DNA of 43,433 nucleotides. It comes from a virus. Shown here piece by piece: positions 10,089 to 42,250 of the stretch. Under the pieces are notes generated by a model that saw only the letters and a list, made by a program, of their open reading frames with translations, was not told where the DNA came from and searched no databases. Every line of letters starts with the position of its first letter. The stretch's first letter is position 1. The translations under genes and the position numbers were made by a program. Where the stretch lies: positions 1 through 43,433 of IMG/VR virus record IMGVR_UViG_3300001918_000023. One strand, given 5' to 3'.

Positions 10089-10381
10089 AAACCATCCGCC
10101 TGTACCACCCGCACACCCACGAAGGCATCGCCTACGACCCGCCGCCGGAAGGCATCGAACTGAGCGTCAACGACGCCGATGCCGCCGTGCTCGAGGCATG
10201 GGGCCTGACCAGGCCGCCGCCCGCGCTCGCCGATGCATCTAGCACCGCACCCGCAGCGGATGCGCCTGTCGCCGACGCGGTGACCGACGCGGTCCCGTCG
10301 CGCCACGACCGCCGCGCCCGCGTTGCGGTCGATCGTTCCTCCCCCGAACCGGCCGCCGACACGACGGCCAGGAGCGTGTAA
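10085..10381 (+). CDS. Small phage protein of unknown function
   Basis: A 98-residue product. The first 45 residues (MKTIRLYHPHTHEGIAYDPP...VNDADAAVLEAWGL) look like a small compact domain; the rest is low-complexity Ala/Pro/Asp/Arg. It overlaps both neighbours (ATGA before, TAATG after), so it is almost surely translated with the tail genes. Position just before the tail tube suggests a tail accessory or connector role, but I do not recognise a family. Confidence 0.65.
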   Translation: MKTIRLYHPHTHEGIAYDPPPEGIELSVNDADAAVLEAWGLTRPPPALADASSTAPAADAPVADAVTDAVPSRHDRRARVAVDRSSPEPAADTTARSV

Positions 10382-11630: not shown

Positions 11631-11776
11631 CCGAGCGCCAGCTCCTCGCGACCTTCGAGGCCGTCGACCGGGGCGAACGCCACCGGCGTGCGGACTTCAT
11701 CGAGGACGTGGCCACCGCCGTGTGGGGCGGGGAGGCCGCCGAAGCGCGCGTGAAGTCCCTGCGCGGCCGTCCGTGA
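11504..11776 (+). CDS. Tail assembly chaperone, -1 frame extension (T-like)
   Basis: This frame encodes RWGDLFARLAAAGYGDLLRL followed by GRMTERQLLATFEAVDRGER, and ends at 11776. The pattern (a short helical domain ending in a Met-Thr-x-Arg-Gln-Leu motif) is common in the C-terminal, frameshifted part of siphophage tail chaperones. An independent start is also possible: ATG 11627 overlaps the stop of the first frame (ATGA) and would give 49 residues. I favour the fusion, because the protein-like sequence extends well upstream of that ATG. The tape measure starts 24 bp downstream. Confidence 0.6.
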   Translation, partial: RARGAGGTARGPAARGRRLRWGDLFARLAAAGYGDLLRLGRMTERQLLATFEAVDRGERHRRADFIEDVATAVWGGEAAEARVKSLRGRP

Positions 11777-11800
11777 GCAGATCTCGATGAACCCGTCCCG

Positions 11801-18610: not shown

Positions 18611-18612
18611 GC

Positions 18613-19410: not shown

Positions 19411-19517
19411 TGCCCCTTCCACGCACCGCCCGGCGCATGCGCGCCGGACGGCGGCTGCGCGCGTCCCGCACCCCGTGCCTCGCACCCCATACCTCGCACC
19501 CCAGGAACCTCTCCACG

Positions 19518-19745
19518 ATGTGGGTCTACGTCTTCGTGCTGATTCTCGCCATCGCGCTCAGCGTCGCGATGCGCCCCAAACCGCAATCGACCAAGCCGCC
19601 TTCGCTCGCCGACTTCTCGGTGCCGACCGCCGAAGAGGGCCGCGAGGTCATGGTGATCTTCGGTGAGGTGTGGGTGGACGATCCGAACGTGCTCGCCTAC
19701 GGCGATCTGCGCACCACGCCGATCAAGGCCAGCGGTGGGAAATGA
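19518..19745 (+). CDS. Small membrane-anchored phage tail protein
   Basis: The 75-residue product starts MWVYVFVLILAIALSVAMRP, a single transmembrane segment, followed by KPQSTKPPSLADFSVPTAEE and an acid-rich end with VWVDDPNVLAYGDLRTTPIK. This is a recurrent small protein beside BR0599-type genes. The ATG at 19518 (AGGAA upstream) is preferred because the frame upstream of it (an ATG at 19410 overlaps the previous stop) encodes only Arg-rich low complexity. Both starts remain possible. It overlaps the next gene by 4 bp. Confidence 0.6.
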   Translation: MWVYVFVLILAIALSVAMRPKPQSTKPPSLADFSVPTAEEGREVMVIFGEVWVDDPNVLAYGDLRTTPIKASGGK

Positions 19746-19975
19746 TGGACGGTCTGCGCATTCACCTTCGGCATGTGCGCGCGATCGATCCGGCCGGCGG
19801 GCCGCTCTGCACGCCGGGCATTCGCGCGTGGTGCCGACAGCACGGCATCGATCTGCGCGCGTTGCGCGAGGACGGCATCGCCGTCGACGACCACCCCCAT
19901 CTGCACGACGATCCGTTCGTGGCGCGTGTTCTGGAGATTGCACGACGCGAACAGGGGGACTCCGATGCGTCGTGA
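19742..19975 (+). CDS. Small conserved phage protein of unknown function
   Basis: A 77-residue product starting at ATG 19742 (or the second ATG at 19745). It reads MMDGLRIHLRHVRAIDPAGG and continues with PLCTPGIRAWCRQHGIDLRA, and is rich in His and Asp (DDHPHLHDD). It overlaps the preceding stop by 4 bp and the following start by 11 bp. This small gene, tucked between tail-tip genes, is often seen with this type of tail module; its role is unknown. Confidence 0.62.
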   Translation: MMDGLRIHLRHVRAIDPAGGPLCTPGIRAWCRQHGIDLRALREDGIAVDDHPHLHDDPFVARVLEIARREQGDSDAS

Positions 19976-20279
19976 TCGCGTGTTTCGCGTCTGGACCACG
20001 GTCGTTGCCTTCGCCTCGCTCGGTTCCGGCGCCGTGCTCTGGTACGCGGGGGAGAGGCTCGCCGGCAGCTTCGGTATCGCGACGGCGCTCGTGCATCTGG
20101 TGTGGGCGGCGAATGGGTTCGGGCGCGACCGGAAGCTTGCCGCGAACGTCTTATGCACGGTGCATAAAATCTGGCGACGACGTCCGATCGTGATCCCCAC
20201 GCTGCGCCCGATCGTGGTCTCACCGCCGCGGCACACCCGGCTGCAGCGCCTGCGCGCCTGGGACCGTCGCCGTGGGTAA
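19965..20279 (+). CDS. Small membrane protein before the tail tip gene
   Basis: A 104-residue product starting at ATG 19965 after GGGGGA. The N-terminus (MRRDRVFRVWTTVVAFASLG and SGAVLWYAGERL) is one transmembrane helix; the rest is basic. The last 8 bp overlap the GTG start of the tip gene. The perfect palindrome at 20151-20167 lies inside it. I cannot assign a function; a superinfection or membrane-associated tail role is conceivable but unsupported. Confidence 0.5.
   Translation: MRRDRVFRVWTTVVAFASLGSGAVLWYAGERLAGSFGIATALVHLVWAANGFGRDRKLAANVLCTVHKIWRRRPIVIPTLRPIVVSPPRHTRLQRLRAWDRRRG
20151..20167. repeat. Perfect 17-bp palindrome
   Basis: TTATGCACGGTGCATAA has 8-bp arms around one central base. 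It resembles an operator in form and is AT-richer than its surroundings, but sits inside a small gene of the tail module. A related half-site (TATGCACAATAA) occurs at 9432-9443, next to the antitoxin promoter region. One such palindrome is roughly expected by chance in a window of this size, so no function is claimed. Confidence 0.4.
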
Positions 20280-22758
20280 GTCGAGCAAGCCGACCATCGG
20301 CTACCGCCACTTCATGTACCTGTACATGGGCGAGTCGATCGGCCCGAACGATTACCTCGCAGCGGTCAAGGTCGGCGGGCAGACGGTGTTCGAGGGCGAA
20401 CGCGCCGGCAGCGGCACGCTGGCGATCAACCTGCCGCAACTGTTCGGAGGCGACAAGAAGGAAGGCGGCCTGGTCGGCACGCTGCAGATCCGCATGGGCG
20501 AGCCGGATCAACTGCCGGTGCCCTACCTGCAGCAACAGGTGCCCGGACCGTGGCCCGCTGCGCGCGGACTCTGCACCACGCTGTACCGCGGGATGGTCGG
20601 GGCGATGAACCCGTACCTGAAGCTGTGGGCCAAGCGCTGGGGGCGCTTCGTGCAGGGCTGGTCGACGCCGGTGTGGCAGCCGCAGCTCGCGCGCATTGGT
20701 CGCGGCATGAACGCGGCGCACATCCACTACCAGTGCCTGACCGACACGGTCTGGGGCTGCGGTCTGGATCCCGCCCTGATCGATGGCGAGAGCTTCCTGC
20801 GCGCGGCCGAGCAGTTGCACGACGAGGCGTTCGGGTTGTGCCTCGGTTGGCGACGCGGGGACTCGATCGGGAATTTCCTGCAGACGGTGAACACCCACGT
20901 CGGCGGGCTGTGGGCGTTCGATCCGATGCGCGGCCAGTTCGTGTACCGGTTGTTCCGGCCGGACTACGACGTCGCCACGTTGCCGCTGCTCGACGAAACC
21001 AGCGTGCTGGCGCTGGAGAGCTGGCAGACGCCGCTGCTGGATGGTTCGGTGAACGAGGTGACGGTGCTCGGCCGCGACTGCGTCACGAACCTCGAGATCG
21101 CCGCGACGTTCCAGAACATGGCGAACGTCCAGGCGCAGGGCCGCGTCGTCGCCGATCGCCGCACGTTGCCCGGCTTGTGGAATCGCGATCTATGCGAGCG
21201 CGTCGCCGCGCGCGAGACCGCCGCCGCGAGCAGCCTGCTGCAGCGGATCAAACTCACTGTCGACCGTCGCTGGTGGGGCGTGAAGCGCGGCGACGTGCTC
21301 GCGCTGTCCTGGCGGCGCAAGGGCGTGCAGTGGATGCCCGTGCGGGTGCTGGAGGTGGACGAGGGCACGCGCACGGACGGTGCGCTCGCGCTGGTGCTGG
21401 TGCAGGACATCGACGGCATGGCCGCGACCACCTACCTCCGGCCGGTGATCGGGCCTTGGACGCCGCCGGACACGCGTCCGGTGCCGGTGCCGGCGCAGCG
21501 CCTTGTCGAGGCGACCTGGCGCGATCTCGCCGGCCGCCTGCGCCCCGCGGATCTGGCGCAGGTCGAGGACGATGCCGGGTTCGTCGTCGCGCTCGGCGCG
21601 CGGCCGAACGGGCCGGCCTACGGTTACACGCTCACCACGCGCACCGGTGCGGGCGACTTCGTCGAGGTCGCGGGCGGGGACTTCTCGGCCACGGCGACCC
21701 TCGCGGGTGCGCTGGGACCGACCGACACGGTGGCGATGCTCGCGGACATGCGCGACCTAGATCTGGTCGCTGTCGGCAGCGAGGCGCTGATCGACGAGGA
21801 ACTGGTGCGCGTCGATGCCGTCGATCCGGTCGCAGGGACGCTCACGCTCGCCCGTGGCTGTGTCGATACCGTGCCGACGCTGCACGCGGCGGGTGCGCGG
21901 GTGTGGTGTACGGATACCTACGTCGGCGCCGATCCGACCGAATACCTCGCCGGGGATACCGTCCAGGCGAAACTGCTCACGCGCACGCAACAGGGCACGC
22001 TCGATCCCGCACTCGCGCCCGTTGCGCAGGTGCGCCTCGACGCGCGCCACGCCCGACCCTATCCGCCGGGCCGGTTGCGGATCAACGGCGCCGCGTGGCC
22101 GCAGACGGCCTTCGCGCGACTCGACTTCGCCTGGGCGCACCGCGATCGCATGCTGCAGGGCGATCGCCTGATCGAACACGAGGCCGGCAGCATCGGCCCC
22201 GAGCCGGGCACGACGACGATCGTGCGCGTCCTGCACGCGCTGAGCGGGGCGGTGCTGCACGAAACGACCGGCATCGCCGGAACGAGCCATACGGTCGAGG
22301 TGCTGCTGGCCAGCGACGCCACCATCCGCGTCGAAATCCGCAGCCAGCGTGGCGCGCTCGCCAGTCGCCAGATGCACGTGCGCACGCTCCAGTGCGAGTG
22401 TGGCGAGAAGTTGGCGAATGCCGACTTCGATACCCAGGCCGCGTGGACACCCGGTGCCGGCTGGTCGATCGCCGGCAGTGCGGCGATCAAGGTCGCGGGT
22501 GTCGCCTCCGATCTCGCGCAGCCCTTCGCGTTCGTCGATGGCGCCCTCTATCGCATCGAATGGGTGTTGTCCCAGGTAACCGCCGGCAGCGCGCGCGTCG
22601 TGCTGGACGGCGCGACGCCCGTGCAGGGCGACGCACGCGGCGGCAGCGGCACCTTCGTCGATGTGTTCACGGCCAGTGCGCACACCGCGCTGCGTGTTGC
22701 CGCAGACAGCGCGTTCGCCGGTCGCGTCGAACGCGTCAGTCTGCGTCGGTTGGCGTAG
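20272..22758 (+). CDS. Tail tip / host-specificity protein (J-like)
   Basis: An 828-residue protein starting at GTG 20272, 8 bp inside the previous gene. It opens with KPTIGYRHFMYLYMGESIGP, typical of J-like proteins associated with BR0599-type tails, and contains a middle rich in Trp and Arg (RRWWGVKRGDVLALSW), beta-rich repeats of the fibronectin-like kind further on (about residues 390-620), and a C-terminal jelly-roll-like part (GWSIAGSAAIKVAGVASDLA). It would form the hub and contact the host receptor. It ends the continuous late operon. Confidence 0.8.
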   Translation: MGKSSKPTIGYRHFMYLYMGESIGPNDYLAAVKVGGQTVFEGERAGSGTLAINLPQLFGGDKKEGGLVGTLQIRMGEPDQLPVPYLQQQVPGPWPAARGLCTTLYRGMVGAMNPYLKLWAKRWGRFVQGWSTPVWQPQLARIGRGMNAAHIHYQCLTDTVWGCGLDPALIDGESFLRAAEQLHDEAFGLCLGWRRGDSIGNFLQTVNTHVGGLWAFDPMRGQFVYRLFRPDYDVATLPLLDETSVLALESWQTPLLDGSVNEVTVLGRDCVTNLEIAATFQNMANVQAQGRVVADRRTLPGLWNRDLCERVAARETAAASSLLQRIKLTVDRRWWGVKRGDVLALSWRRKGVQWMPVRVLEVDEGTRTDGALALVLVQDIDGMAATTYLRPVIGPWTPPDTRPVPVPAQRLVEATWRDLAGRLRPADLAQVEDDAGFVVALGARPNGPAYGYTLTTRTGAGDFVEVAGGDFSATATLAGALGPTDTVAMLADMRDLDLVAVGSEALIDEELVRVDAVDPVAGTLTLARGCVDTVPTLHAAGARVWCTDTYVGADPTEYLAGDTVQAKLLTRTQQGTLDPALAPVAQVRLDARHARPYPPGRLRINGAAWPQTAFARLDFAWAHRDRMLQGDRLIEHEAGSIGPEPGTTTIVRVLHALSGAVLHETTGIAGTSHTVEVLLASDATIRVEIRSQRGALASRQMHVRTLQCECGEKLANADFDTQAAWTPGAGWSIAGSAAIKVAGVASDLAQPFAFVDGALYRIEWVLSQVTAGSARVVLDGATPVQGDARGGSGTFVDVFTASAHTALRVAADSAFAGRVERVSLRRLA

Positions 22759-28383: not shown

Positions 28384-31300
28384 ATGAGCGACGCTGGGGC
28401 GTGGATCGCTAAGTTCTTCCGGGTGGGCGGGAAAGCCCCGCTCTTCATCCACGTGGACGCGCACGGAAATCCAGTGCCGTCCAAGCTGTCGTCGGGCGAT
28501 CTCCGACGCTTCGAACTACGTTCGAAGGGTAGACCGTTGTTCTGGACCAGTTGCTGCGCCGGCGACAGCCGCTTCGCGTTCGCGGACCGGAAACTGACGG
28601 TCACCTACGTCGTGCGCAACGCATTGCTGTCCGGCTTGAAGACACTTGCGGGCGGATCCGCCGTCGACGCCTTGGTGTTCCGGCTAGAAGCGACCGTCGT
28701 TGCGGACGGCAGCCTGCGCGTCGATGCGCTGCGCGTGAGCAGATTCATCCCCGGGGACGAGAATCCGAACCATTGGTTCCCCGGCGGCGAAAACCTGTGG
28801 GCAGCGCCGCTGAACAACGCGTTCCGACGGAGCAATCCCGCGCCGCCCGTGGCCCTACTGCGCGACCTCTCGGGGCTGGCCCAGGCGTCCCTGCCGACCA
28901 CGGACGACCAAGTTCCTTTCACCATCCGGCGCGTCGACGGCGGCGGGCCCTCGCGCGTGGAAATCCTGCGTGGCATCAACCACGATGCTGACGTGCCGCA
29001 GCGCTGGCCATCGTTCGAGGACGGCCGCGGCGGCGCGGAGACCGGGCCGCGTTTCAGGCTCAGGCAGGGCTCTGGGCATCTCGAATTCCTGGTCGATCTC
29101 GCCCATCGCAAGGCCACGGGCAAGGCCGAATATTGGCTCGTGCAGACCGATCCCTGGACACCGCCCAAGGACGACGCCGAGGATGCCGATGCGGTCTGGC
29201 GAGAATTCCGCATTGACGGGCTCGACCCGAAGCGCGTGCTCTCCGGATACGGGCGCGCCATCGCCGCTGCGATCCGCGATCCGGTGGCCATCGCGAACGA
29301 ACCGGACGGCATCAGTGTGGTGCCGGAAATCGCTGCGGACGGCATGCCGCAGGCCACCGCGAGCATCGTCTGGGAACAGCGCGACCAGCGACCCGACGAA
29401 CCGCAACTCGCGGGCGCGGACGATTTCGGCGCCGGTCGCAGCGTGCGCCTGACCACGACCGCCGCGTTTCCGGTACGGGTGACGCTGCCCGGACTGGCGT
29501 CCGACGCGGGCGTGATCGCATTTACCGGCAAGTGCGGCATGGTGGCGATCGGTCGCGACGACAGGGCGCACGGTTTCGAGCCCAATGCGGTCATCGATCT
29601 CTCCGAGCTGCGGATCGCCGGTCCGGGCGACATGCCGGCGAGCGACGTCGGCGCCATGAAACTGGACTTCGCGCGGGCATCCGGCAGGAAGAACTTCAGG
29701 ATCGCCTACGCGCTTGCGATGCATCCGCGCCGGCGTTCGATGCAGCGGCCATTGCTGCATGCGGAACTCGAATTGGGCGGCATCGCGGTGCGGCCGATCG
29801 GCTTTGATCCCGCGCCGGAGAGCCGCTTTTCGGACGATCTGAACAGCGACGCCCTGTCGTCGCCGATCGTCGCCCCGGCCGCCGATGGGGCGTTCGCGGA
29901 AAGCGCGTTGATCGCGCGCGAGTGGCTGCGCGATGGACATTCGCGCAGCCTATCGCTCTCGTTGCTGGCGCAGTCTTCACCCGGCGATGACGCCGACCAG
30001 CACCGACAGCTGGACGTGATCGTGCTGGATGTCACGCCGTTCTTCTTGGGCAAGGTGGCGGTGCCGCTGCCGCTGGCCGACGAGGAGACGGGCGCTTACG
30101 CCACATGGTCGCTGAGCGACCCCGAGGGGCCGCGCTGGCGGTTCCGATCGCTCGATCCTATCGCGACGCTGACGTTGCCGACTCAGGGCGTCGGCGAAGC
30201 CTACGAGCGCCGGAAGGATATTCCCGAGCCGACACGCGACCAGCCTCAGCCGAAAGACGGCCAGCCTCCGCTCGTCGACTATCGCCTCGGTCCTCATGCC
30301 GATTTCAAGCTGCGACTGCGCGACGACGAACGCGCCTACAGCGACCTGCCTTGGAACCTGCGTCTGCTCTTCGGCCGGGCCGGGGGCGCGGCTCCGGGGC
30401 CGGTACTGACGTCGGCCCGCTTCGAACTGCTCTACGGCCTGGAAACGACTCTCGCCCCGACCGGCATCCGGCTGACCACCGACGAGGTCGCGCGTGGAGG
30501 AATCGTGCAACGGTTCGTCGGCATCGACGCCACGCGCGCCTCAGCGGCGGAAACGACCGCGCCGGAGCCCTACCGCCGAGCCTGGAACGCCCTCGTCGAC
30601 GGCTACCAGAGCCGTCTGTTGCCGCTCCATCCGTATCGCCCGCTGGCCGAAGGCGCCGCCTGTTTCGATGGCGGCAACGGTCTGAGCCAGCGCCTGCGTC
30701 TGTCGACCACGGACGATCACCGCGAATTCGCCGACCTCGATCCCGAACCTTACTTGGACGGCCGGAAGGGGCATGGCCTGCGCGGCGGAGCCACCTTCGG
30801 GTTCGAGTCGGAGCGCATCTACGTCGACGTCACCCGCGATCTGCGCTCGACCAGCGGCGAGGCCTCGCAGCTCGCCTGGACCGCATTGGGCGGGTATGGC
30901 GCGCTGAAGGCCCGTTTCGACGAGGATCGTTCGATCATCGAGGCGAAAGTCGAACTCGGGCGCGTCAGCCACTATGCGGTCGAGCGGATCGGGCGCATCG
31001 GCGTGTTCTGGAACCGCGCCAAGCACGTCATCGTCTACGAGCGCACGACGCGTCGCGCCGAACGTTACGAGGAGGTGCAAAATGAGCTGAAGCATTTGCC
31101 GATCGTGCGCAAGGTCGACGAATACATCGAACTGCTCGAACCAGAGCGCCGGTTCGCGCCGCCCGACCGCCCGGCGCAGACGACCGGTTTCGTGCAGGGT
31201 CTGAAATTCGCCGATCGCATCATTCGCGTCAGCTCCCTGTGGGGCAGAGACGTGGGCATGCAGGGCTGGGCGGTGCCGCTCTGGCGGAAGGGTGAGGACC

Positions 31301-34300
31301 CGACTTTGTTTCCGAAGCCGTTGGTCAACCTGATCGCGGCGTCGCAGGAGGCCGGTGAAGAAGCGCTGCACGCGATCGCCGACCCCGAAAATCTGATGTT
31401 CTTCACCGACACCACGCGCGGTGCCGGCGACGACAGCGATCGCTGGCCGGCGCTGGAAGACCTGGATTTCGTGGACACACGCGTGCACCTCGAGCGAACG
31501 CCGTCGCCATTCGGCGACCGCAGCGCCGAGACTCTGCGCAGGCCGAATACGTCCCCGCAGGCACTGCCTCCAGCGCTCGCGCCGTGTACCTGGCGGATCG
31601 AAAGCGGTGCGACGGCGATCGACCTGGTCGCCGGTCGTGGCCCGCGGCCGATTTCCGCGAAACTGGCCAACTTCACGGTGATGCGCCGGCCCGCCGAACT
31701 GCCGGAGCAGGCTTCGCCCGTGCGCCGCGCGCGCGCGGCGATGGGCGAATTCGAGTCCATCCGTGAGGATGTGCGCGACACGCTGGCGATGGGGCTGCGC
31801 GGGACTTGGCCGAAGGAGCGCTGGGACGCGGAAAGCAAGCGCCTCAAGACGCGGATCGACGCATTGCTCAAGGAACTGCGGGCCATCGCCGACGACGGCA
31901 TGAATGTGCTCGCGCGGTCGCCTTGTGCCTTGCTCATCGCACAGGCCCAGCGGCCGCTGAACGTGCTGGCACGCGATGCCGCCCGGCGCATCGACGAAGA
32001 AGGCGATCAGATCAAGCGCCGGGCGGACGCGATCGGAAAGCTCGCAGAAGAGGAGATCAGGGCGCTTGCCCACGAACTCTCGCAGCGCGTCGACATCCTA
32101 GCTGCGACCGGCGGCCAGGCCGCGGCGCACCTCGATGCCACCCTCGACCGCGCCGAAGCCGAATTGCAACGCATCCGGGAACGGGCGGTATCCGTCGTCG
32201 CGGAGGCGGAGGCGGAACTACAGGTCATGCTCGACGACATTGGGCAGACGCTCGACGAGCGTGCCTATCGTTTGCGTCTGGCGCGGGTACGCCAGACGCT
32301 GCGCGATCTGCGCACGCACACGGAGCCGCTGTTCGACGAATTGCGGCGCGCGTGCGCGCGGTTGGCGGCGCGCTGGAACGGCAATGTCGCGGGCGTCGAT
32401 CTCGCGGAGCGATTGCCGAAACTAGTCGGCGGCCTGGACAGCGAATGGAAGGGAGTGGTCGATGCGGCCGACCTGAGGCTTGACAGCGCAGATGGCATCG
32501 CAGAGAAATTCGGCGAAACCTTGCGTAGCGCGGTGAAGGATCTCAAGACCGGCATCGGCAAGGGGCGCGCCGATATCGACAAGGCGATGGATGCGCTGAA
32601 AGAGGAAGCGCTGGCGGGCATGGGCGATGCGCGTGGGCACGTGCAGGCGTTGTCGAAAGAATTCGACGAAGCCATTCTGGGGATCCGGAAGGGTGTCGGC
32701 GATTTCGAAGCCGAAGTGGCCAATGCGGCGGATCTCGCAGGGTTCAAGATCAAAGTCGATGTCGCCGGTAGTGCCCTGAAGGCGAAGGTATCCCAGGCGT
32801 GCGCGGATGCGAACACGGCGATCAAGCAGCGGATCGAGGACACGATCTGCCCCTATCTGCCGCAGATTGATCCCGCGCACGCAAAGGTGTTGCTCGACGC
32901 TTTGTCGACGTTGGGAACGTTGGTCGAAAAATTCCCGTCCATGGATCACGCAATCCTCGCCAGCCAGTTGGAAGCGATGTGGTCGGCGCTGTCCGGGACT
33001 ATCGAAGCGTCATCCGACTGGATCGCCCATGCCGCCGACAGCCTCGGCGATGCGGTGCGCACGGCCTTCGATGCGCCGCTGTCGCTGCTGCGCGCGTTCG
33101 GCGCCGCACCGGATTTGCCCGAGCTGAGTTTCAACCGTGAATGGCTCGAGTACGTCTTCAAGCCCGGCGATATCACCATCGACCTCAGCCCGGTTACCGC
33201 GTTCTTCTCCGAATTGGGCGACGATCTGAAAGGTCTTTCGCTGAATCTGCCCTCCGTGGGTATCGATGCCTCGGGCCTGCTGCCGGCAGCGCTGCGCGAA
33301 TTCGATTTGAACGCGGTGTTCGGCAGTCTCGGCGGCGTGAAGATGCCGGGTCTGCTGTCGCGGGTGAAGCTGCCGAATCTCGACCGCAACGCCGTTCGGA
33401 TCACGCATGGATTCGATAAGAAGTCAAAGCGCGCCTGGGTGCAGGCGGATGTCGACGTCCCCTACGACACAAATCCCGTGCTGTTCGATGCCATGAGCTT
33501 GACGCTGCGGTTGGTCAAACCCAGGTTCACAGCCAACTCGCGTCTGGACGCGGCGCTCGAGGGCAAGCCGGGCTTTCATGCCAAGGGCGAAATCGCATCG
33601 ACGCTGCGTCTGGAGTTCTCGGGAAACGCCCTAGTGGACCTGCGCGATGCGGCGATCCGTTTCGATGACCGCGGGCGTTTCGATTTCGATTTCAACCCAG
33701 ACCGCATCGATTTCAGAGCAGGTCTGAAATTCATCGCGGATCTCATCAAATCGCGCAAGGATCTGCAGAAAGATCCGGACAAGGCGCAGGGCTTCGTGCC
33801 CGAACTGATCGAAGTCGACGGTCAGCCCATCGGGGTGCGCACGACACTCGAGCTCGATCCCGGACCATTGAATGTCGGCGCGTTCGCGATGGATGGACTG
33901 GCGCTGAACCTCTCGTTCGAACTCGTCGCCAAGCCGGAGTTCAAGATCGGCACGCGGCTCGGTCTTGCTTCGCGCGACAAACCATTCGTAATCAGCGTCG
34001 GCCTGTTGGGTGGCGGTGGTTGGCTGACGGTCGCGGTGTCGTACGCGCCAGCGAAGGGGCTGCTGGAGTCGGAAGTGGATATCGCGATCGCCGCCGGCAG
34101 GGTGTTCTCGGTGGCCTTCGGACCGATCCGTGGCATGGCAAAAGTGGTATTCGGCGTGAATGCGAGATTCGTCAGCCGCGGCTCGCATTCGCGTTTCAAC
34201 CTGATCGTTTTCTTCCTGTTCACCGGCGATTTCCGGCTGTGGGGGATCGTCACCGTCGGCGTGTATCTGCGGCTGGAGATCGAATATCAGTCCAGCGGTT

Positions 34301-34539
34301 CGCTGGTCGGGCGCGGGGTGGTGCATGTCACCGTCAAGATCGGGCGGTTCTTCAAACGCACCGTACGGCAACGGGTGACATATCAGTTCGCCGGAAAGTC
34401 CGGCAGCCGTCAGGCCTTGGTCGACGGGGCAGCGAAGTCTTCGCCCTCCAATATCTCGTCGCGACAGGAAACTGCCCTGCGGACAGCGGTGGGTCACGGC
34501 GAACGCGCCGACCGTTATCTCGAGCGTTACGAGGATTGA
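28384..34539 (+). CDS. Giant protein A (about 2051 residues), unrecognised
   Basis: The start ATG 28384 is chosen because GGAGAG lies 4 nt before it; the frame is open further upstream (ATG at 28354 and 28372). No signal peptide is seen. Residues 1-1100 look like mixed, mostly beta-rich domains. Residues about 1120-1350 and 1380-1480 are long charged helices (for example ERWDAESKRLKTRIDALLKE, AEELQ-type heptads), a probable coiled coil. Residues about 1580-2010 are beta-rich with regular strand pairs (FHAKGEIASTLRLEFSGNAL) and a hydrophobic stretch (RFNLIVFFLFTGDFRLWGIV), then a basic tail. It forms an operon with the next gene. Family unknown; a structural, adhesin-like or lipid-groove-like role are guesses. 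Confidence 0.85.
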   Translation: MSDAGAWIAKFFRVGGKAPLFIHVDAHGNPVPSKLSSGDLRRFELRSKGRPLFWTSCCAGDSRFAFADRKLTVTYVVRNALLSGLKTLAGGSAVDALVFRLEATVVADGSLRVDALRVSRFIPGDENPNHWFPGGENLWAAPLNNAFRRSNPAPPVALLRDLSGLAQASLPTTDDQVPFTIRRVDGGGPSRVEILRGINHDADVPQRWPSFEDGRGGAETGPRFRLRQGSGHLEFLVDLAHRKATGKAEYWLVQTDPWTPPKDDAEDADAVWREFRIDGLDPKRVLSGYGRAIAAAIRDPVAIANEPDGISVVPEIAADGMPQATASIVWEQRDQRPDEPQLAGADDFGAGRSVRLTTTAAFPVRVTLPGLASDAGVIAFTGKCGMVAIGRDDRAHGFEPNAVIDLSELRIAGPGDMPASDVGAMKLDFARASGRKNFRIAYALAMHPRRRSMQRPLLHAELELGGIAVRPIGFDPAPESRFSDDLNSDALSSPIVAPAADGAFAESALIAREWLRDGHSRSLSLSLLAQSSPGDDADQHRQLDVIVLDVTPFFLGKVAVPLPLADEETGAYATWSLSDPEGPRWRFRSLDPIATLTLPTQGVGEAYERRKDIPEPTRDQPQPKDGQPPLVDYRLGPHADFKLRLRDDERAYSDLPWNLRLLFGRAGGAAPGPVLTSARFELLYGLETTLAPTGIRLTTDEVARGGIVQRFVGIDATRASAAETTAPEPYRRAWNALVDGYQSRLLPLHPYRPLAEGAACFDGGNGLSQRLRLSTTDDHREFADLDPEPYLDGRKGHGLRGGATFGFESERIYVDVTRDLRSTSGEASQLAWTALGGYGALKARFDEDRSIIEAKVELGRVSHYAVERIGRIGVFWNRAKHVIVYERTTRRAERYEEVQNELKHLPIVRKVDEYIELLEPERRFAPPDRPAQTTGFVQGLKFADRIIRVSSLWGRDVGMQGWAVPLWRKGEDPTLFPKPLVNLIAASQEAGEEALHAIADPENLMFFTDTTRGAGDDSDRWPALEDLDFVDTRVHLERTPSPFGDRSAETLRRPNTSPQALPPALAPCTWRIESGATAIDLVAGRGPRPISAKLANFTVMRRPAELPEQASPVRRARAAMGEFESIREDVRDTLAMGLRGTWPKERWDAESKRLKTRIDALLKELRAIADDGMNVLARSPCALLIAQAQRPLNVLARDAARRIDEEGDQIKRRADAIGKLAEEEIRALAHELSQRVDILAATGGQAAAHLDATLDRAEAELQRIRERAVSVVAEAEAELQVMLDDIGQTLDERAYRLRLARVRQTLRDLRTHTEPLFDELRRACARLAARWNGNVAGVDLAERLPKLVGGLDSEWKGVVDAADLRLDSADGIAEKFGETLRSAVKDLKTGIGKGRADIDKAMDALKEEALAGMGDARGHVQALSKEFDEAILGIRKGVGDFEAEVANAADLAGFKIKVDVAGSALKAKVSQACADANTAIKQRIEDTICPYLPQIDPAHAKVLLDALSTLGTLVEKFPSMDHAILASQLEAMWSALSGTIEASSDWIAHAADSLGDAVRTAFDAPLSLLRAFGAAPDLPELSFNREWLEYVFKPGDITIDLSPVTAFFSELGDDLKGLSLNLPSVGIDASGLLPAALREFDLNAVFGSLGGVKMPGLLSRVKLPNLDRNAVRITHGFDKKSKRAWVQADVDVPYDTNPVLFDAMSLTLRLVKPRFTANSRLDAALEGKPGFHAKGEIASTLRLEFSGNALVDLRDAAIRFDDRGRFDFDFNPDRIDFRAGLKFIADLIKSRKDLQKDPDKAQGFVPELIEVDGQPIGVRTTLELDPGPLNVGAFAMDGLALNLSFELVAKPEFKIGTRLGLASRDKPFVISVGLLGGGGWLTVAVSYAPAKGLLESEVDIAIAAGRVFSVAFGPIRGMAKVVFGVNARFVSRGSHSRFNLIVFFLFTGDFRLWGIVTVGVYLRLEIEYQSSGSLVGRGVVHVTVKIGRFFKRTVRQRVTYQFAGKSGSRQALVDGAAKSSPSNISSRQETALRTAVGHGERADRYLERYED

Positions 34540-34541
34540 CC

Positions 34542-37500
34542 ATGGGCCTGAAGTTCTACTTCGATACGGCGGTTCTGGGCCCAGTCTACGAAGACGCCCA
34601 CCGCGATCTGGTCATGTCGGCCAGCGTGGCGTGGGACGGTGGCCCGCTCCCCGACGACGCCCGACTGGAAGCAGTGTTGCAGCCCTGGCGCTGGCGATAT
34701 GGCGACTTCGCGCTCTATCGGCAGACGGTCGACCATCCGCAGCCGGTCCTCGTCCAGGACATGGCATCGGTGGCGCTCGATCCCGAATGGTCGCCAAAAA
34801 TCGACGAGGTTCGGTCAACGTTCACTACGCTCAAGACATTGTATCGCCGTTGCCGCGATGCGGATGCGGGCTCGATCGCCATCGATCCTTCCACGCCGCA
34901 CCGGTACACGCTGGCACTGTCGCAGGACGAGCGCGACGAAGATCCCGATCTGCCCAATCCGCAGTGTTGGCCGGACCTGCTGGGTCAGGTGAGCCGCTGG
35001 CCGGGGCTGATGCCGTACCGCTTGAACCTGCAGATCGTTCTGCGTGTCCCGACCGTCGCGATCAAGCCCGATGAGGTTTATTTCGCACTTCCCCGCACGC
35101 TGGGCATGGAGGACATGACCGATGTGCTCGAACTGTTGGACGGCAAGGTCTCGGCGCCCACGGATGCCGTCCCCGGGATCGTGGCAGGGCAGGGCGAGAT
35201 CGAAGCGCATTACGCGTGGGCGGACGATGCGGCAAAGGCGCCGGTGGCGATCGCTCACGTGGGGGGGCGCGCAGAGCCGAAGTCCGATCCGGAGGCTCCG
35301 CTCGATCTGACGACGCTGTGGGTGAACCTCGGACGGGATGCGAAGTGGACCTCGCACGACGCCATTGCTGCGATGCCGACGCTGGTCGCCGAGGCTTGCG
35401 ATCAGCCGGATCTGCTGTTCGATGCATTCTCGGCGATGGCCGCCACCGATTCCGGGAAGCCTGAAATCGCGTCGAACTTGGCGGACTTTTTCGATCAACA
35501 GGCCAATCGCACCGGATTGATCGCCTTCGCGTTGTCAGCGTGGACGCTGCGCTACGGTGCGCTCGGACGCCTGGGGAACGATGGCGCGCATCCGCTGACA
35601 TCCGTCCTCAGCGCGGCGCTGCGCGACGACTATGGGCGGAAAGGCTGGCATGTGCTCGCTGCGGCGTTCAAGGGCACGCCCCCGCTGTCGCAGGATGCGT
35701 TGGATGCCGCGATTCGCGCTGCGAATGCGCATGTCGAAACAGGAGCGCCCCAGTTGCTGACGCCAATGCAACTGCAGGACACGACATGGATGCAGGGCGG
35801 CCTGGCCTTCGTGCGCGAAGCCGCACGCATCTTCGCTTGGCTGACGTCCGATGCCGGCCTGTTCTCGATCTATGAGACTCCCTGGCTGGAGGCCGTGAAG
35901 AAGCATGCCGACAGCATCAACGATTCGGATGCGGTCGATGACCTGAGCAAATGGTGGGCCTCCGAAGCCAGGGAGGCGTACCCGCTCGGCGCGTCGGTGC
36001 GCGCGGCCTGGTGCAGCGCGGGTGAGAGCGCGCCTGTCGAATCGGGCGCGACGCCGACGCCGACGCCGCTGCGCGCGGTGGTGGACCGGTTGCGTGCGTC
36101 CGCCGAAGCCGATCCGAAACTAGCGCTGGAGTCGTTGCTGACCGATGTCGCGTCCAACCCCGTCGCACCGAATCTGCATCTGCGGAGATACCTGGAGACG
36201 TCGGGCATCGCAGCCGACCCGATTCTCTCGAATGCCTTCCATGCGGCGTTCGCTGGTCGCATCGCTGCGCTCGGACGCGTCCATCTCGACGGCAACATGC
36301 GTGCGACCGCCGTGCCGGCCGGTTACCCCGCGGCCTTCGGCGATCCGTGGCCGCTGGACCGTGTGCAGGATCTGATGTTGCCGATGGATCGACCCGGTCA
36401 CGTCGACAGCGACGACGAGCTCTTGCAGGATCTGCGTCGGCAGATCGCCGGTGTCGGCATGCTTGTGCGCCAGCGCGAAAAATCGTGGAAATGCCTGGCT
36501 GCGGCAGACGTCGTCTTCGATGCGCCGGACGGCACGCCCTCGTTCCGATACAAGGCGCTGGCCGGACAGCCACCGGGGTTCGCGGGCGAGATGCGAACCA
36601 CTATGGTTGCCTATAACGGCGAGCCGTGGTTCGACCGCGGCGACGACGAAGCGCTGGCGGTGGGTTACGGCGGGGGCGGCGATCCCGATGGATCGGCGCT
36701 GACGCCACTGCGGATTATGGCTCCGCCGAAGTCGAAGCTGCCGGATCTGAAATTCGGGCAAGCCTATTCGGCCGCGCCGTTCCTCATCGGACCGGGTAAC
36801 GCGCTGCCGGCGGCGCTGGCGGATGGACATCCGGCGCGGTCCATCGACGCCTTGCACAACGAGGCGGGGCTGGACGGTGCGGCCATCCAGCTGCTGGCAG
36901 ATCGACCGTGGCGTTATTACCTGCGCCGCGTGCCCGTCGGTGCGCCGCTGCTGCTGCCGAAGGATCGTGACAGCCTGTTCTCGCGCCGTGCGGACGTGTT
37001 CCCGCTGGCGCATGAAGTGCTCGCGGAAGGCACCGCGATTGCCGGTGTCGACAAACACGCGCCATTGACCTTGCTGCGTCCCGCCACCGAGATAGAGGTC
37101 GAATGGCTCGGCCGGGAACGGCAGGAGTTCGAGATCCATCCTCCCGAAGTCGACATGATGGTGTGGCTGCGGCAGTGGCGCGCTGCCCTCGCCGCTGAAA
37201 CCGACGGCGACAGGCAACGAGCCTTGAAGAGTGCGCTGAGCGCCAGCTTGGCGAAATGGATGCAACAGGTGGATGCCATCGCCGCCGCGCCCGATGCCGG
37301 ATTGGCCATGCCGAAATTCCACGATCCGGCGCACGACGGCTATCGCGTGGATATACGCGAAATTTGGCCGCGCGAGCAGGATGCATACGCGACGTGGGTA
37401 GTCGCGGTAAACGGCGCATCCCAGGCGCCGGACGCTACGACCGCTCCGATCGTGCTGGAGGTCGCATCGGCAGTAAAGAAAACCGATGTGCTCTCGATCA

Positions 37501-39176
37501 AGCCGAGCGAAGGCAAGGTGGTCGTGTCCGGACTGCAGGCCGGCCGGGTCTATGCACTCTGCGTGTCGGCCCTCGTCCGCACCGATCGTTTCGCCGTCAA
37601 AGAGGGCGACGTTGTGCAGGGCCGCACCGTCTTCGCGCCATCGGCGCTGTTCCTGGGAGACACTGCGGCGGAAGACGCGAGCGGCGACATCCGCTTCGCA
37701 TCGCGCATCGTGTTGGCCGAAGTCGCCACGTCGAAGTTGCCCAAACCCACGCACGAGAATCCGTCGGACGAGGATCCGCTGTTCAAGGCTCTGGGGACCG
37801 CGTTCGACGGACGCATGCTCATCGTCGCTGCCGATTTCTCGGCGATGCCGAAGTCCGATTGGCAATACGTGAGAACCTTCATCCTCGAACGTCAACGCTG
37901 GCGCTGGAACGGCCGACATATCGACATCGACACCATCGACCGATTGCCCACCGTTTCTGCGGGCGCCGGCTTCGCGCCGGACGCCGCTTCGGCAAAGGCC
38001 TTCGAAGATTGGGCATTCGACGAGCGTGCTCTCGGCGATTTCGTGCGCGAATACGCCGCTTCGGCGGCGAACGATCCACGCACGGTGCTGCTGCGCGAAG
38101 ACATGCAGTCGAACAACAGTGCCGTCTACGAGCGCTATCGCCTGCGTGCGCGCAGCCGCTATGCGGGCCTGATGAAGAGCGCCGAATATGCGGAACGCGG
38201 CGGCGACAGATGGCGTTCGTTCGCGATGAAGTTTCGCCCCGCTGCCGCCGTGCTGCCACGGCCGAAAGTGGCGATGTTGCTGCCGCTTACCGGCGGCTAC
38301 GCCGCCGGCGATCCACTGCGCAGATTGGCGTGTCTGGTGCAGATGGACGAGACCGCCTTCGGTCAGGCCGGACTTCCCGAGCGTATCGGGCTGGAGGCCG
38401 AGATGGCAGGGCCCGATGCGCTGCTCGTCCGATCGGCACCCGAATCCGAAGTCGTGTTGAAAGTCGACGCCCACGGCCCCCTTGGCCACAGCTTCGACCC
38501 GGATGCGCCGGGGGCTTTGTATCGTCGTGCCAGTTGGGTCGCGAGCTTTCGTGACCCGAGCGCGGCGACCGAGATGGCTGCGGTGCATCACCCTTGGGCA
38601 ATGGTGAAGTTGCGCGTCAGGCGCGAGGTCCCGGCGGATTGGGTCTGGCCCGTACCGGATGCCGTCATGGCGTCGGAATGGGTCTCGGCCGGCTGGATCC
38701 AGTTGCCGCGGCCGTCCGACCAGATCCTGCTGTCGGACCTGCCGCCGACACCAGCGTCCGAGCTGCGTGTGCTGCGCGATGCGGGGAGAGGGCGTGTCGC
38801 GATCGTGCGCAAAGCGGGCAAGCCCGACGCATTGAAGCTCGTGCGGGAGCCGGGTTTCGACGTGATGTTCGCGGTGCTGACTTATCGGGCGAGGGATGCG
38901 CGCGGTCTGCCGGGCGCGGAGCAGATTCTCGTGACCCGCGATGCTGCGATCGGAGACGATGGTCGGACATGGATTGATGTCGACGGTTTGGAGCTCGCAA
39001 CGATTGGCTCATTGCGCCTGCGGTTGCTCAGCGTGCAGCGCAACCCAAAGGACCGTCATGGCAATGCTTGGACCTGTCATTCACTGTCTGATCTCTTCGC
39101 TCGAGTCGGAGAGGAAGAGACGTCCGATGCGCGATTCCGACTGATGAGGGTGAGCTTTCCGATCGAAGAAATCTGA
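34542..39176 (+). CDS. Giant protein B (about 1544 residues), unrecognised
   Basis: Starts 2 bp after giant A (TGACCATG), so the two are translationally coupled. It opens MGLKFYFDTAVLGPVYEDAH. The first 150 residues include strands with RYTLALSQDERDEDP; helical segments follow (about 290-520). Around residues 965-1020 there is an Ig/fibronectin-like stretch (VLEVASAVKKTDVLSIKPSE, GLQAGRVYALCVSALVRTD). The end (residues 1240-1540) is again beta-rich with many Trp and Arg. No signal peptide, transmembrane helix or catalytic motif is recognisable. Size and coupling imply a joint function with giant A. Confidence 0.83.
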   Translation: MGLKFYFDTAVLGPVYEDAHRDLVMSASVAWDGGPLPDDARLEAVLQPWRWRYGDFALYRQTVDHPQPVLVQDMASVALDPEWSPKIDEVRSTFTTLKTLYRRCRDADAGSIAIDPSTPHRYTLALSQDERDEDPDLPNPQCWPDLLGQVSRWPGLMPYRLNLQIVLRVPTVAIKPDEVYFALPRTLGMEDMTDVLELLDGKVSAPTDAVPGIVAGQGEIEAHYAWADDAAKAPVAIAHVGGRAEPKSDPEAPLDLTTLWVNLGRDAKWTSHDAIAAMPTLVAEACDQPDLLFDAFSAMAATDSGKPEIASNLADFFDQQANRTGLIAFALSAWTLRYGALGRLGNDGAHPLTSVLSAALRDDYGRKGWHVLAAAFKGTPPLSQDALDAAIRAANAHVETGAPQLLTPMQLQDTTWMQGGLAFVREAARIFAWLTSDAGLFSIYETPWLEAVKKHADSINDSDAVDDLSKWWASEAREAYPLGASVRAAWCSAGESAPVESGATPTPTPLRAVVDRLRASAEADPKLALESLLTDVASNPVAPNLHLRRYLETSGIAADPILSNAFHAAFAGRIAALGRVHLDGNMRATAVPAGYPAAFGDPWPLDRVQDLMLPMDRPGHVDSDDELLQDLRRQIAGVGMLVRQREKSWKCLAAADVVFDAPDGTPSFRYKALAGQPPGFAGEMRTTMVAYNGEPWFDRGDDEALAVGYGGGGDPDGSALTPLRIMAPPKSKLPDLKFGQAYSAAPFLIGPGNALPAALADGHPARSIDALHNEAGLDGAAIQLLADRPWRYYLRRVPVGAPLLLPKDRDSLFSRRADVFPLAHEVLAEGTAIAGVDKHAPLTLLRPATEIEVEWLGRERQEFEIHPPEVDMMVWLRQWRAALAAETDGDRQRALKSALSASLAKWMQQVDAIAAAPDAGLAMPKFHDPAHDGYRVDIREIWPREQDAYATWVVAVNGASQAPDATTAPIVLEVASAVKKTDVLSIKPSEGKVVVSGLQAGRVYALCVSALVRTDRFAVKEGDVVQGRTVFAPSALFLGDTAAEDASGDIRFASRIVLAEVATSKLPKPTHENPSDEDPLFKALGTAFDGRMLIVAADFSAMPKSDWQYVRTFILERQRWRWNGRHIDIDTIDRLPTVSAGAGFAPDAASAKAFEDWAFDERALGDFVREYAASAANDPRTVLLREDMQSNNSAVYERYRLRARSRYAGLMKSAEYAERGGDRWRSFAMKFRPAAAVLPRPKVAMLLPLTGGYAAGDPLRRLACLVQMDETAFGQAGLPERIGLEAEMAGPDALLVRSAPESEVVLKVDAHGPLGHSFDPDAPGALYRRASWVASFRDPSAATEMAAVHHPWAMVKLRVRREVPADWVWPVPDAVMASEWVSAGWIQLPRPSDQILLSDLPPTPASELRVLRDAGRGRVAIVRKAGKPDALKLVREPGFDVMFAVLTYRARDARGLPGAEQILVTRDAAIGDDGRTWIDVDGLELATIGSLRLRLLSVQRNPKDRHGNAWTCHSLSDLFARVGEEETSDARFRLMRVSFPIEEI

Positions 39177-39374: not shown

Positions 39375-39923
39375 ATGTCCGAAGAAAGGATTGATTACGA
39401 ATGGAAAGTCTCCGTAGATGGAGTCCTGGGAACACTCGCGGAGGATCTGTTGCTGATCCCTAGCGATGGTTCTTCGCCAACCAAACTTCCGTTCAGCTGG
39501 AGCAAGTCAAAGGCTTACTACACGAGTTATTGCAGCGCCGGGAACGATTGCCCTGACGGGGAATTCCCGCTGGACTGCACACATTTCGTCTGCCATGGAC
39601 TGTCCAAGTCAAGAGTCCTCGTTAACCTTCCTGCTGTCACGTGTACTAATGGAGTTTGCGTTCGAGTCGCTGAACTTGCGGCAGCGTTCAAGAATTCATC
39701 GGCAAAGTATTCGAACGTAAAACGGATCGCCAACCTAGCCGATACCCGCGAGGGTGACTTCTGCTTTGTCGTCTCGTGGTTCGGCCTATCCAAAGATCAT
39801 GTCATGGTGCTGGCAGAGAAAATGACCGCGACCGGCGGAAGAGTGTGGGGGCACACGAATTCGCGCTGCGCCCAGTTTGTCGATCTGACTGAACAGTCAC
39901 TCGTCATCTATCGCATCGAATAG
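39375..39923 (+). CDS. Putative cysteine hydrolase (NlpC/P60 or amidase-like)
   Basis: A 182-residue protein with a strong ribosome binding site. DCTHFVCHGLSKSRV (C68) looks like the nucleophile motif of papain-like NlpC/P60 and amidase_6 families (typically D/N-C-x-x-F-V). DHVMVLAEK (H142) provides the base, and GHTNSRCAQF (H160 or N162) the third residue. This would cleave amide bonds, for example in peptidoglycan. There is no signal peptide, so export would need another route, or it acts in the cytoplasm. Several other cysteines are present (C53, C59, C90, C95, C130). No immunity gene is visible next to it. GC is lower than the flanking genes. Confidence 0.6.
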   Translation: MSEERIDYEWKVSVDGVLGTLAEDLLLIPSDGSSPTKLPFSWSKSKAYYTSYCSAGNDCPDGEFPLDCTHFVCHGLSKSRVLVNLPAVTCTNGVCVRVAELAAAFKNSSAKYSNVKRIANLADTREGDFCFVVSWFGLSKDHVMVLAEKMTATGGRVWGHTNSRCAQFVDLTEQSLVIYRIE

Positions 39924-40236: not shown

Positions 40237-40446
40237 GTGACACCGATCCAAACTTTTGACCCAGCGCGCATGTTGCCGGAACAGCGGCGCACGGAGGCCG
40301 CGGCGTTGCTAGCCCTCGGCCTGCACCGCCTGCGCAGCGGCGACGCGCACGTGGGCGCCGTCGGCGCGCCTTCTCCGGTTGGTCTTGGCTTTGGCCGCCA
40401 CCCACGCGTACATGCCAACCCCGCCCACCGGAGTCCACAGGCATGA
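40237..40446 (+). CDS. Small ORF at the head of the recombinase module
   Basis: A 69-residue product starting at GTG 40237. MTPIQTFDPARMLPEQRRTE and AAALLALGLHRLRSG form a short conserved-looking N-terminal part as often found just before DUF2924 and recombinase genes; the rest is Pro/His-rich and poorly conserved in style. It overlaps the next gene by 4 bp (ATGA), consistent with coupled translation. Function unknown. Confidence 0.55.
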   Translation: MTPIQTFDPARMLPEQRRTEAAALLALGLHRLRSGDAHVGAVGAPSPVGLGFGRHPRVHANPAHRSPQA

Positions 40447-40913
40447 CGCAACAATCCCCTCCCGCGGCTCCGCCCGCATCGATGGCTGCACGCATTGCGC
40501 ACTTGGCCGATTGGTCGTGGCCGGACATCAAGAAGGAATGGCAGCGCCTTTTCGGCGGCGAGCCGTCCATCTCCAATCGACGTTTCGTCGAGAAGCGCAT
40601 CGCGTATCGTTGGCAGGAGATCGAGTTCGCCAAGACCGACCGGGGCTTGCTCGAACGCAACAGCCGCCGGATCGACGAACTGGTCGCGACTGGCACATTG
40701 AGGCGCCAGAAGACCGGCTCGACGCCGATCGCGGGCACGGAACTGATCCGCGTCTACGCCGGCGTCGAACATCGGGTCCGGGTCCTGCCGGACGATGAAT
40801 TCGAGTACGCCGGCAAGCGGTATCCGAGCCTGTCGATGATCGCCCGCGAGATCACCGGCACCCGCTGGAGTGGACCTGCCTTCTTCGGACTGCGCAAGGG
40901 GGCACGCCGATGA
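40443..40913 (+). CDS. DUF2924 protein, recombinase partner
   Basis: A 156-residue protein. LADWSWPDIKKEWQRLFGGE and RRFVEKRIAYRWQEIEFAKT are the typical helices of DUF2924; the second half has a small beta part (ELIRVYAGVEHRVRVLPDDE) and ends YPSLSMIAREITGTRWSGPA followed by FFGL, a common feature of this family. These genes nearly always precede large serine recombinases of proteobacterial elements. The biochemical role is not known. It overlaps the recombinase start by 4 bp. Confidence 0.88.
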   Translation: MTQQSPPAAPPASMAARIAHLADWSWPDIKKEWQRLFGGEPSISNRRFVEKRIAYRWQEIEFAKTDRGLLERNSRRIDELVATGTLRRQKTGSTPIAGTELIRVYAGVEHRVRVLPDDEFEYAGKRYPSLSMIAREITGTRWSGPAFFGLRKGARR

Positions 40914-42250
40914 GCGCCGTTCCGACCAAGCGGCTGCGTTGTGCGGTCTACACCCGCAAGTCCACGGACGAGGGACTCGACGCCGAATACACCTCGATCG
41001 ACGCCCAGCGCGACGCAGGGTCGGCGTTCATCGCCAGCCGACGCATGGAGGGCTGGATTCCGGTCGCGGGCGACTACGACGACGGTGGCTTCTCCGGCGG
41101 CACGCTGTTGCGTCCCGCACTGCAACGCCTCATGGAAGACATCCGCGCAGGCCAGATCGACATCGTCGTGGTCTACAAGATCGACCGCCTGACGCGATCG
41201 CTGTTCGATTTCGCTGAACTGGTCAAGGTCTTCGAGGAGTACGGCACGACCTTCGTGTCCGTCACACAGCAGATCAACACCACGGATGCGATGGGGAGGA
41301 TGATGCTGAACATCCTCCTCGCGTTCGCACAGTTCGAGCGCGAACTGACCGCGGAGCGCATCCGCGACAAATTCGCCGCCAGCAAGAAGAAGGGGCTGTG
41401 GATGCACGGGATCTGTCCGCTGGGGTACGACGTCGTGGATCGCCGGCTGGTCATCAACGTAGCGGAGGCCGAGCAGGTCCGGACGATCTTCCGTCGCTTC
41501 GTCGAACTGGGCTCGATCCTGAAGGTCGTGCAGGAGGCGAGGGCGCGTGGCTGGTGCAACAAGACGTGGACGACGAAGGCGGGCACGGTGCGGCCCGGCA
41601 AGCTCCACGACAAAAGCTCGATCCACGGCATGCTGCATTGCCGCACCTACCTCGGTGAACTCAAGCATCGCGGTGAGTACGTCGAGAGCACCCACCCGGC
41701 GATCATCGAAAAGGTGCTCTGGGACGAGGCGCATGCCCTGCTGCAGGTCAACGGCCGGGTTCGCTCCGCAGCCTCGCGTGGCAAGGTGGACTTCCTGCTG
41801 AAGGGTCTGCTGACCGGCCCCGACGGCCGCGCCCTGTCGCCGTGGCACACGACCAAAGCGAACGGGCGGACCTACCGCTACTACCTGAGCACGCGCGACA
41901 TCCACGAGGGGCGGGGCACGTCGGGCCTGCCGCGCCTGCCGGCGGCCGAACTTGAGGGGGCGGTGGTCGGACAACTGCGCCAGTTGCTGCGTGCGCCGGA
42001 GATGGTCGAAGCGATGATCCCGCAGGCGCTCGCCCTCGACCCGACACTCGATGAGGCGCAGATCACGGTCGCGATGACGCAGGTCGACCGGGTGTGGGAG
42101 CAGTTGTTCCCCGCCGAGCAGCAGCGGCTGGTCCGGCTGCTGGTGGAGCGGGTCATCGTGACGCCGAGAAACCTAGAACTCCGGCTGCGCCCCGGCGGCG
42201 TCGGCAGCCTCGCCGCTGACGCCCGGCATGCTTCCGAGGCGGTCGCATGA
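40910..42250 (+). CDS. Large serine recombinase (integrase)
   Basis: A 446-residue site-specific recombinase. The resolvase catalytic domain has the nucleophile in AVYTRKSTDEG (S18), DAQRDAG, and the arginine motif VYKIDRLTRS (residues 88-97). The recombinase domain follows with IHGMLHCRTYLGELKHRGEY. The usual zinc-ribbon cysteines are missing: the segment GLLTGPDGRALSPWHTTKAN has none, as in many proteobacterial relatives. It ends with a helical part. It would integrate and excise the element. GC and codon use match the phage late genes. An attachment site should lie nearby, but cannot be defined by eye. Confidence 0.93.
   Translation: MSAVPTKRLRCAVYTRKSTDEGLDAEYTSIDAQRDAGSAFIASRRMEGWIPVAGDYDDGGFSGGTLLRPALQRLMEDIRAGQIDIVVVYKIDRLTRSLFDFAELVKVFEEYGTTFVSVTQQINTTDAMGRMMLNILLAFAQFERELTAERIRDKFAASKKKGLWMHGICPLGYDVVDRRLVINVAEAEQVRTIFRRFVELGSILKVVQEARARGWCNKTWTTKAGTVRPGKLHDKSSIHGMLHCRTYLGELKHRGEYVESTHPAIIEKVLWDEAHALLQVNGRVRSAASRGKVDFLLKGLLTGPDGRALSPWHTTKANGRTYRYYLSTRDIHEGRGTSGLPRLPAAELEGAVVGQLRQLLRAPEMVEAMIPQALALDPTLDEAQITVAMTQVDRVWEQLFPAEQQRLVRLLVERVIVTPRNLELRLRPGGVGSLAADARHASEAVA

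Follow-up and report, generated by a model that had tools for sequence, protein, structure and literature searches.

Two giant genes, A and B, which lie next to each other in a viral record of 43,433 bases (the whole stretch analysed, referred to as the window) belong, together with a remote branch A'-B', to an undescribed family of coupled giant genes that is thinly but widely spread and is inherited as a pair. The conserved two-gene system, with ~2,300 to 5,060 residues per pair, occurs in two phyla; A-B and A'-B' were left unnamed by the annotation libraries used, and no description of giant gene pairs of this kind was found in the literature searched. The initial annotation had described two coupled giant genes of 2051 and 1544 residues that are separated by 2 bp and take up a quarter of the window; the sizes, the gap and the share of the window (10.8 kb) were all confirmed (Table 1).

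Table 1. Genes and protein regions of the window discussed in the text.
Feature	Position	Strand	Remarks
Phage head, packaging and tail module (terminase, portal, protease, head, tape measure, tail)	581..22758	+	context
Gene A, first giant protein	28384..34539	+	2051 aa, ATG start
A aa 1-534, N-terminal part	28384..29985	+	poorly conserved, length varies among relatives; few invariant columns before aa 481 (alignment A1)
A aa 535-1114, central part	29986..31725	+	most conserved block in A; model pLDDT 31
A aa 1115-1560, amphipathic coiled-coil/helical part	31726..33063	+	alpha hydrophobic moment z 5.4; sub-threshold apolipoprotein, ZorA and tape-measure matches
A aa 1565-2007, C-terminal domain, long amphipathic beta-strands	33076..34404	+	alignment A3; beta moment; low-confidence model
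Gene B, second giant protein	34542..39176	+	1544 aa, ATG start; homologues
Gene C, putative Cys-His (papain/amidase-like) hydrolase	39375..39923	+	182 aa, no signal peptide; motifs DCTHFV, GDFCFVVSW...DHVMV, GHTN
DUF2924 gene of integrase module	40443..40913	+	right boundary of cargo region; context
Serine integrase (resolvase/recombinase) of prophage	40910..42250	+	context

Among 200 Markov resamples of the region with the same dinucleotide make-up, the longest stretch free of stops measured 644 codons, so the lengths of the two ORFs are not due to chance. The GC content by codon position (0.69/0.48/0.80 for A and 0.69/0.50/0.77 for B) displays the codon bias of coding DNA. A, B and gene C are located in a lower-GC stretch from ~24 to 41 kb of the window. 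Given their position between the tail module, which includes genes for tape measure and tail-tip proteins, and the DUF2924/serine integrase genes, A and B are cargo that lies outside the structural module. Upstream of A, at positions 26171-27672, a two-gene unit encodes a 143-amino acid protein and a 352-amino acid HELGH metallopeptidase that weakly resembles Lit, a phage-exclusion protein (E-values 4e-5 to 6e-5), and this unit is a candidate defence module.

To our initial locus further loci were added by searches with both proteins. A tblastn search of plasmids with A identified Rhizobium and Sinorhizobium megaplasmids and one Streptomyces plasmid, and a contig scan with B identified a Lysobacterales genome (51% identity in B and 57% in A). 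Viral contigs yielded no matches when scanned with A, B and C as single proteins or with alignments of two sequences; a broader alignment scan identified two further viral contigs (L019 and L020), and genome searches added more loci. The resulting twelve A-B loci (the window, L002, L003, L004, L005, L006, G849, G1320, G1344, L019, L020 and G1069) come from Lysobacterales, from Rhizobiaceae chromosomes and megaplasmids and from the two other viral contigs. B was recognised by its profile directly after A in 11 of them; in L020, an ORF of 719 residues that was not matched to B starts 1 bp after A and runs off the contig. The remote branch, which shares the C-terminal domain of A, consists of 14 loci (G804, G819, G877, G791, G034, G1020, G1366, L007 and L063-L068), including Streptomyces and Cupriavidus metallidurans, and a giant B' directly follows A' in each of these. 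The pair of Streptomyces xanthophaeus is compact, with ~1000 amino acids in A' and ~1330 in B'. Both branches therefore have what we took as the rule for the family, an A protein with the C-terminal beta domain (profile A3) directly followed by a giant second gene. Where the distance between the giant genes was measured, it ranges from -4 to +42 nt.

The pairs could be recovered from either side: searches with B or B' led to L002 and the six plasmid loci L063-L068, all of which contain A or A', and searches with A led to the other loci. The pairwise divergence of A corresponds closely to that of B (Mantel r 0.98, p 0.0004, nine A-B loci), and the same is true for A' and B' (r 0.96, p 0.0002, 13 loci). 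Because the correspondence between A and B holds across three divergent Rhizobiaceae lineages (L003; L006; L005 with G1320 and G1344), which are mutually only 21-25% identical in A, it does not merely follow species phylogeny. A profile-profile comparison of B with B' gave three collinear weak segments (P 0.01, 0.05 and 0.11). The family is sparse: full-length A was present in 1 of 369 genomes of the class to which the Lysobacterales genome belongs, and the C-terminal domain of A in 5 of 151 genomes of the Rhizobiaceae, the family of G849. The proposal that conservation as a pair would point to a two-component assembly is well supported by this survey, in which the second giant gene directly follows A. 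Lack of co-occurrence elsewhere, which had been named as speaking against the proposal, was not observed, as co-occurrence was complete in the readable loci. The conserved pair and the two-component assembly of the earlier reading were thereby retained; its further suggestion of a surface, delivery or defence apparatus is tentative. In Streptomyces nigrescens (L007, 15656-20296), B' contains a PG_binding_1-like domain (E-value 2e-4) and a His/Asp/Gly-rich tail.

Neither A nor B passed a curated cut-off in Pfam or NCBIfam, and no credible match was found in PADLOC, PHROGs or PDB sequences. A gave weak coiled-coil matches only, and only coiled-coil proteins in PDB sequence profile searches; B gave nothing in Pfam, NCBIfam, PADLOC and PHROGs and nothing credible in the PDB. 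Family searches detected no ATPase, nuclease or other effector motif in either protein, and no clear match of A and B to an already characterised pair, the other outcome named in advance as contrary, was obtained. The initial statement that the proteins contain no known motif holds in general, except for a sub-threshold match of the coiled coil of A (aa 1198-1331) to the amphipathic helices of apolipoprotein A1/A4/E (PF01442). RefSeq names one relative of A (L006) by this model. An apolipoprotein identity was rejected: A scores 26.8 bits, far below the curated cut-off of 90, and long coiled coils match the model by composition. The Zorya protein ZorA and LeoA were likewise rejected as identities, with matches confined to coiled-coil stretches of A (E-values 0.004-0.04) and an NCBIfam ZorA score of 6.8 bits versus a cut-off of 190; a full-length match including the ZorA membrane domain or the LeoA GTPase domain, which we required for membership, was not obtained. 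To count as a phage tail or tape-measure protein, A or B had to match a structural PHROG over much of its length. The best PHROG match was 18 bits over 106 residues of the coiled coil of A, and B had none. RHS/Tc-type toxins were discarded too, as RHS/YD repeats, SpvB and TcdB-mid were not detected in A or B at E-values up to 1.

Relatives of A conserve its central part (aa 535-1114) and its C-terminal domain (aa 1565-2007), and they differ in the N-terminal part and in the length of the helical part. The central coiled coil that had been noticed in one of the proteins was borne out at ~aa 1115-1560 of A, and its C-terminal flank is indeed beta-rich, with a beta moment of z 6.2 for aa 1700-1860 and 3.0 for aa 1860-2005. 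Two A' members gave z 5.3 and 4.2, and phage control proteins gave z 0.6 or lower. The last part of the C-terminal domain is common to the branches A and A', and its HMM (A3) matches the A' loci examined with E-values of 7e-48 or better. AlphaFold models of A 1540-2051 and A 535-1130, each with four sequences, were of low confidence (pLDDT 48 and 31, respectively), and the former contains many strands of 10-20 residues. A PDB fold search with this model gave no significant match (top E-value 3e-3 or worse, TM-scores ~0.1-0.3). The top, non-significant matches were outer-membrane beta-barrels and TULIP/MTP-type lipid-binding proteins, with which A has long amphipathic antiparallel strands in common; at a pLDDT of 48 and without significance this is a resemblance of the C-terminal domain to these proteins but not membership. 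Since the same domain is found in Streptomyces, which has no outer membrane, a simple outer-membrane barrel does not account for it and was rejected as its general function.

Four viral contigs (L078-L081) share 78-89% identical DNA with the window over 2-2.5 kb of the integrase region. A-B was found at this region in none of the four contigs, in which the upstream edge of the slot is not seen. Two of them (L078, 3-9148; L080, 2-9147) encode a giant Ig/SpvB/TcdB-mid/RHS protein beside the integrase, a third (L081) encodes an RHS protein ending in DUF4329, and the fourth (L079) carries other genes including one for a CHAT protein, suggesting that this prophage lineage may use the position beside the integrase for conflict genes. 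Like A-B, the RHS/SpvB-TcdB polymorphic toxins of L078, L080 and L081 are giant cargo of prophages and adjoin the same DUF2924-integrase module. A and B differ from them in lacking RHS, SpvB and FG-GAP repeats as well as any Pfam match above cut-off, and whereas the RHS cargo of the sibling prophages has a variable C-terminal domain, the C-terminus of A is a conserved part and no variable toxin. The giant protein of L078 and L080 has, as judged by eye, a Cys-His pattern at its C-terminus, and the small protein encoded after it starts in a signal-like manner; the two are possibly a toxin and immunity pair.

Downstream of B, gene C encodes a putative Cys-His amidase-like enzyme, as judged from its motifs, of which DCTHFV, GDFCFVVSW...DH and GHTN are invariant in two homologues. 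No Pfam match was obtained for C even at an E-value of 10 (including the NlpC/P60, CHAP and Amidase_6 types), nor a PDB match, and no immunity gene is apparent beside it. C was absent from 258 genomes of the class of the Lysobacterales genome, a set without a positive control. The only close relative found (68% identity) is encoded on a plasmid of Cupriavidus oxalaticus, where it precedes a different giant pair, X (3441 aa) and Y (2304 aa; L071, 9645-26898), by 1.5 kb; a third, partial relative from Ensifer has no giant genes alongside. X-Y is a tight pair that also occurs on rhizobial and Undibacterium plasmids (L072-L077) and, as far as could be found, is itself undescribed. X-Y resembles A-B in consisting of two adjacent giant genes of an undescribed family, often with a small wall enzyme, and in having gene C in common, but profile-profile comparison of X-Y with A or B gave no significant similarity. 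X measures 2787-3953 amino acids and Y ~2300-2790 on plasmids of Cupriavidus, Rhizobium, Bradyrhizobium, Mesorhizobium and Undibacterium. One member of a giant pair is split into two ORFs in L004 (12964-19958), L064 (9721-13963), L072 (20504-28158) and L077 (20136-28378), and such splits on several plasmids suggest that some copies may have decayed.

Enzymes acting on the cell wall or on peptides recur beside giant pairs. In L073, L074 and L077, X-Y is followed by a gene for a YkuD or M23 enzyme in which no signal peptide is visible. Next to A-B, an extensin-like_C gene lies 22 bp after B in G1069, a gene for an Rv2525c glycoside-hydrolase-like protein lies 45 bp before A in L019, and a protein with an LDT-like motif is encoded in L006; A'-B' is accompanied by Peptidase_C1 (G034), M35 (G819), or trypsin and then M23+lysozyme (G791). 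By eye this recurrence is strong, with neighbours that were chosen by hand and several loci that have no such enzyme. No hydrolase is visible at the stand-alone pairs L003, L005, G849, G1320, G1344, L063 and L066, and because of these many pairs C-type genes are not essential. Wall enzymes recurring beside unrelated giant pairs give a concrete and testable lead. The small L,D-transpeptidase-type enzymes of L073, L077 and L006, which adjoin giant pairs and have no visible signal peptide, can be set beside the T6SS effectors with an L,D-transpeptidase fold (Tlde1a; PMC9638812) by enzyme type. The giant pairs differ from this system in that we noticed no T6SS gene among the neighbourhoods that were examined, and sheath, tube, baseplate or ATPase genes of a contractile injection system (T6SS, eCIS, tailocin) were not noticed in the neighbour listings of any locus. 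On two Rhizobium plasmids a 317-amino acid membrane protein with a bacterial Ig domain is encoded between the giant pair and the wall enzyme (L074, 28394-29347; L077, 28409-29362).

The function that we tentatively favour, at somewhat less than an even chance, is that of an obligate two-protein giant assembly which acts outside the cytoplasm, in many cases together with a wall hydrolase that can be exchanged, and which most likely serves competition among bacteria, perhaps through antibacterial attack. A and B would be obligate partners, produced in a coupled manner from one operon and joined in one very large hetero-complex. A would provide a coiled-coil stalk and the C-terminal amphipathic beta domain, which probably interacts with membranes, lipids or other parts of the assembly, and B would be the partner subunit. 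For the location, Tat-type signals (a twin-arginine motif and a hydrophobic stretch, recognised by eye) are present on six A' proteins (G804, G819, G877, G791, G034 and L063), so that part of the remote branch may export A' via Tat. In the A-B branch, signal peptides are absent from both proteins, which for the window agrees with the initial annotation (none was visible by eye at the N-terminus of A or B), and the prophage-encoded proteins would require release by lysis or some other route. We propose that C is a partner or payload of A-B; at several loci, the active cargo of the antibacterial apparatus would most likely be a small hydrolase of cell wall or peptides that is exchangeable (C in the window), and the apparatus itself would travel as prophage or plasmid cargo. 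A broader version, in which A-B(-C), A'-B' and perhaps X-Y are branches of one undescribed class of antibacterial delivery particles, built from two giant proteins and carrying signal-less exchangeable wall hydrolases, on prophages and plasmids across Pseudomonadota and Actinomycetota, is rather doubtful. If the system is a delivery apparatus, it would be a giant machine that lacks the contractile tube or RHS shell found in known ones.

Two other readings compete most closely with this one, a non-toxic structure on the cell surface and a defence complex inside the cell. A-B could form a large extracellular layer or fibre with a role in matrix formation, adhesion or lipid binding, for which the hydrolases only open the wall during assembly. 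The Tat export signals of A', the coiled coil combined with an amphipathic beta domain, the PG_binding_1-like domain inside the Streptomyces B' and the stand-alone operons on chromosomes are all consistent with such a structure, but the very sparse distribution in the genome counts given above, the residence on prophages and plasmids and the RHS proteins that sibling prophages encode next to the same integrase fit a conflict system better. We consider a surface structure unlikely. A large cytoplasmic sensor/effector complex for intracellular conflict or anti-phage defence, carried as prophage cargo, is unlikely to a slightly greater degree. It would agree with the lack of signal peptides on A and B, the weak LeoA/ZorA matches of the coiled coil, the Lit-like peptidase upstream of A-B in the window and the defence genes near other pairs (Septu in L004, SIR2 adjoining A in L006, AbiE in G819, PDC-S06 in G877 and a caspase in G791). 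These neighbours, as seen, are suggestive of a defence island; defence genes are however common in accessory regions anyway, and many giant-pair loci have none in sight. The six Tat-type signals, the cell-wall enzymes among several neighbours and the lack of an effector motif also speak against defence inside the cell. Because of the A' Tat signals, the neighbouring cell-wall enzymes and the RHS proteins of the sibling prophages, we lean to an extracytoplasmic, possibly antibacterial apparatus rather than an intracellular anti-phage defence.

That A-B encodes structural or adsorption proteins of the phage lineage, as a virion or lysis accessory, is very improbable. The pair does follow tail-type genes in two viral contigs, the window and L019, and the coiled coil of A has the weak tape-measure match of 18 bits. 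Against this, no PHROG structural family was matched, no relative of A or B was found among 50,697 phage records, relatives occur on chromosomes and plasmids without phage genes, and the sibling prophages with the same integrase lack A-B there. A phage structural identity was rejected on the lack of a PHROG match and the relatives outside phages, and the initial view that A and B are not phage structural genes is borne out by relatives that stand alone on chromosomes and plasmids.

An apparatus acting outside the cytoplasm could be approached by simple deletions, which are feasible since members of the family are present in well-used organisms (Cupriavidus metallidurans CH34, Rhizobium, Sinorhizobium and Streptomyces). 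Two minor observations concern the surroundings of the pairs. In L004, a complete Septu (PtuA-PtuB) operon at 5079-8236 precedes the split A gene by ~5 kb. The right end of the window has a 61-amino acid ORF rich in His, Asn and Lys on the minus strand (42814-42999).
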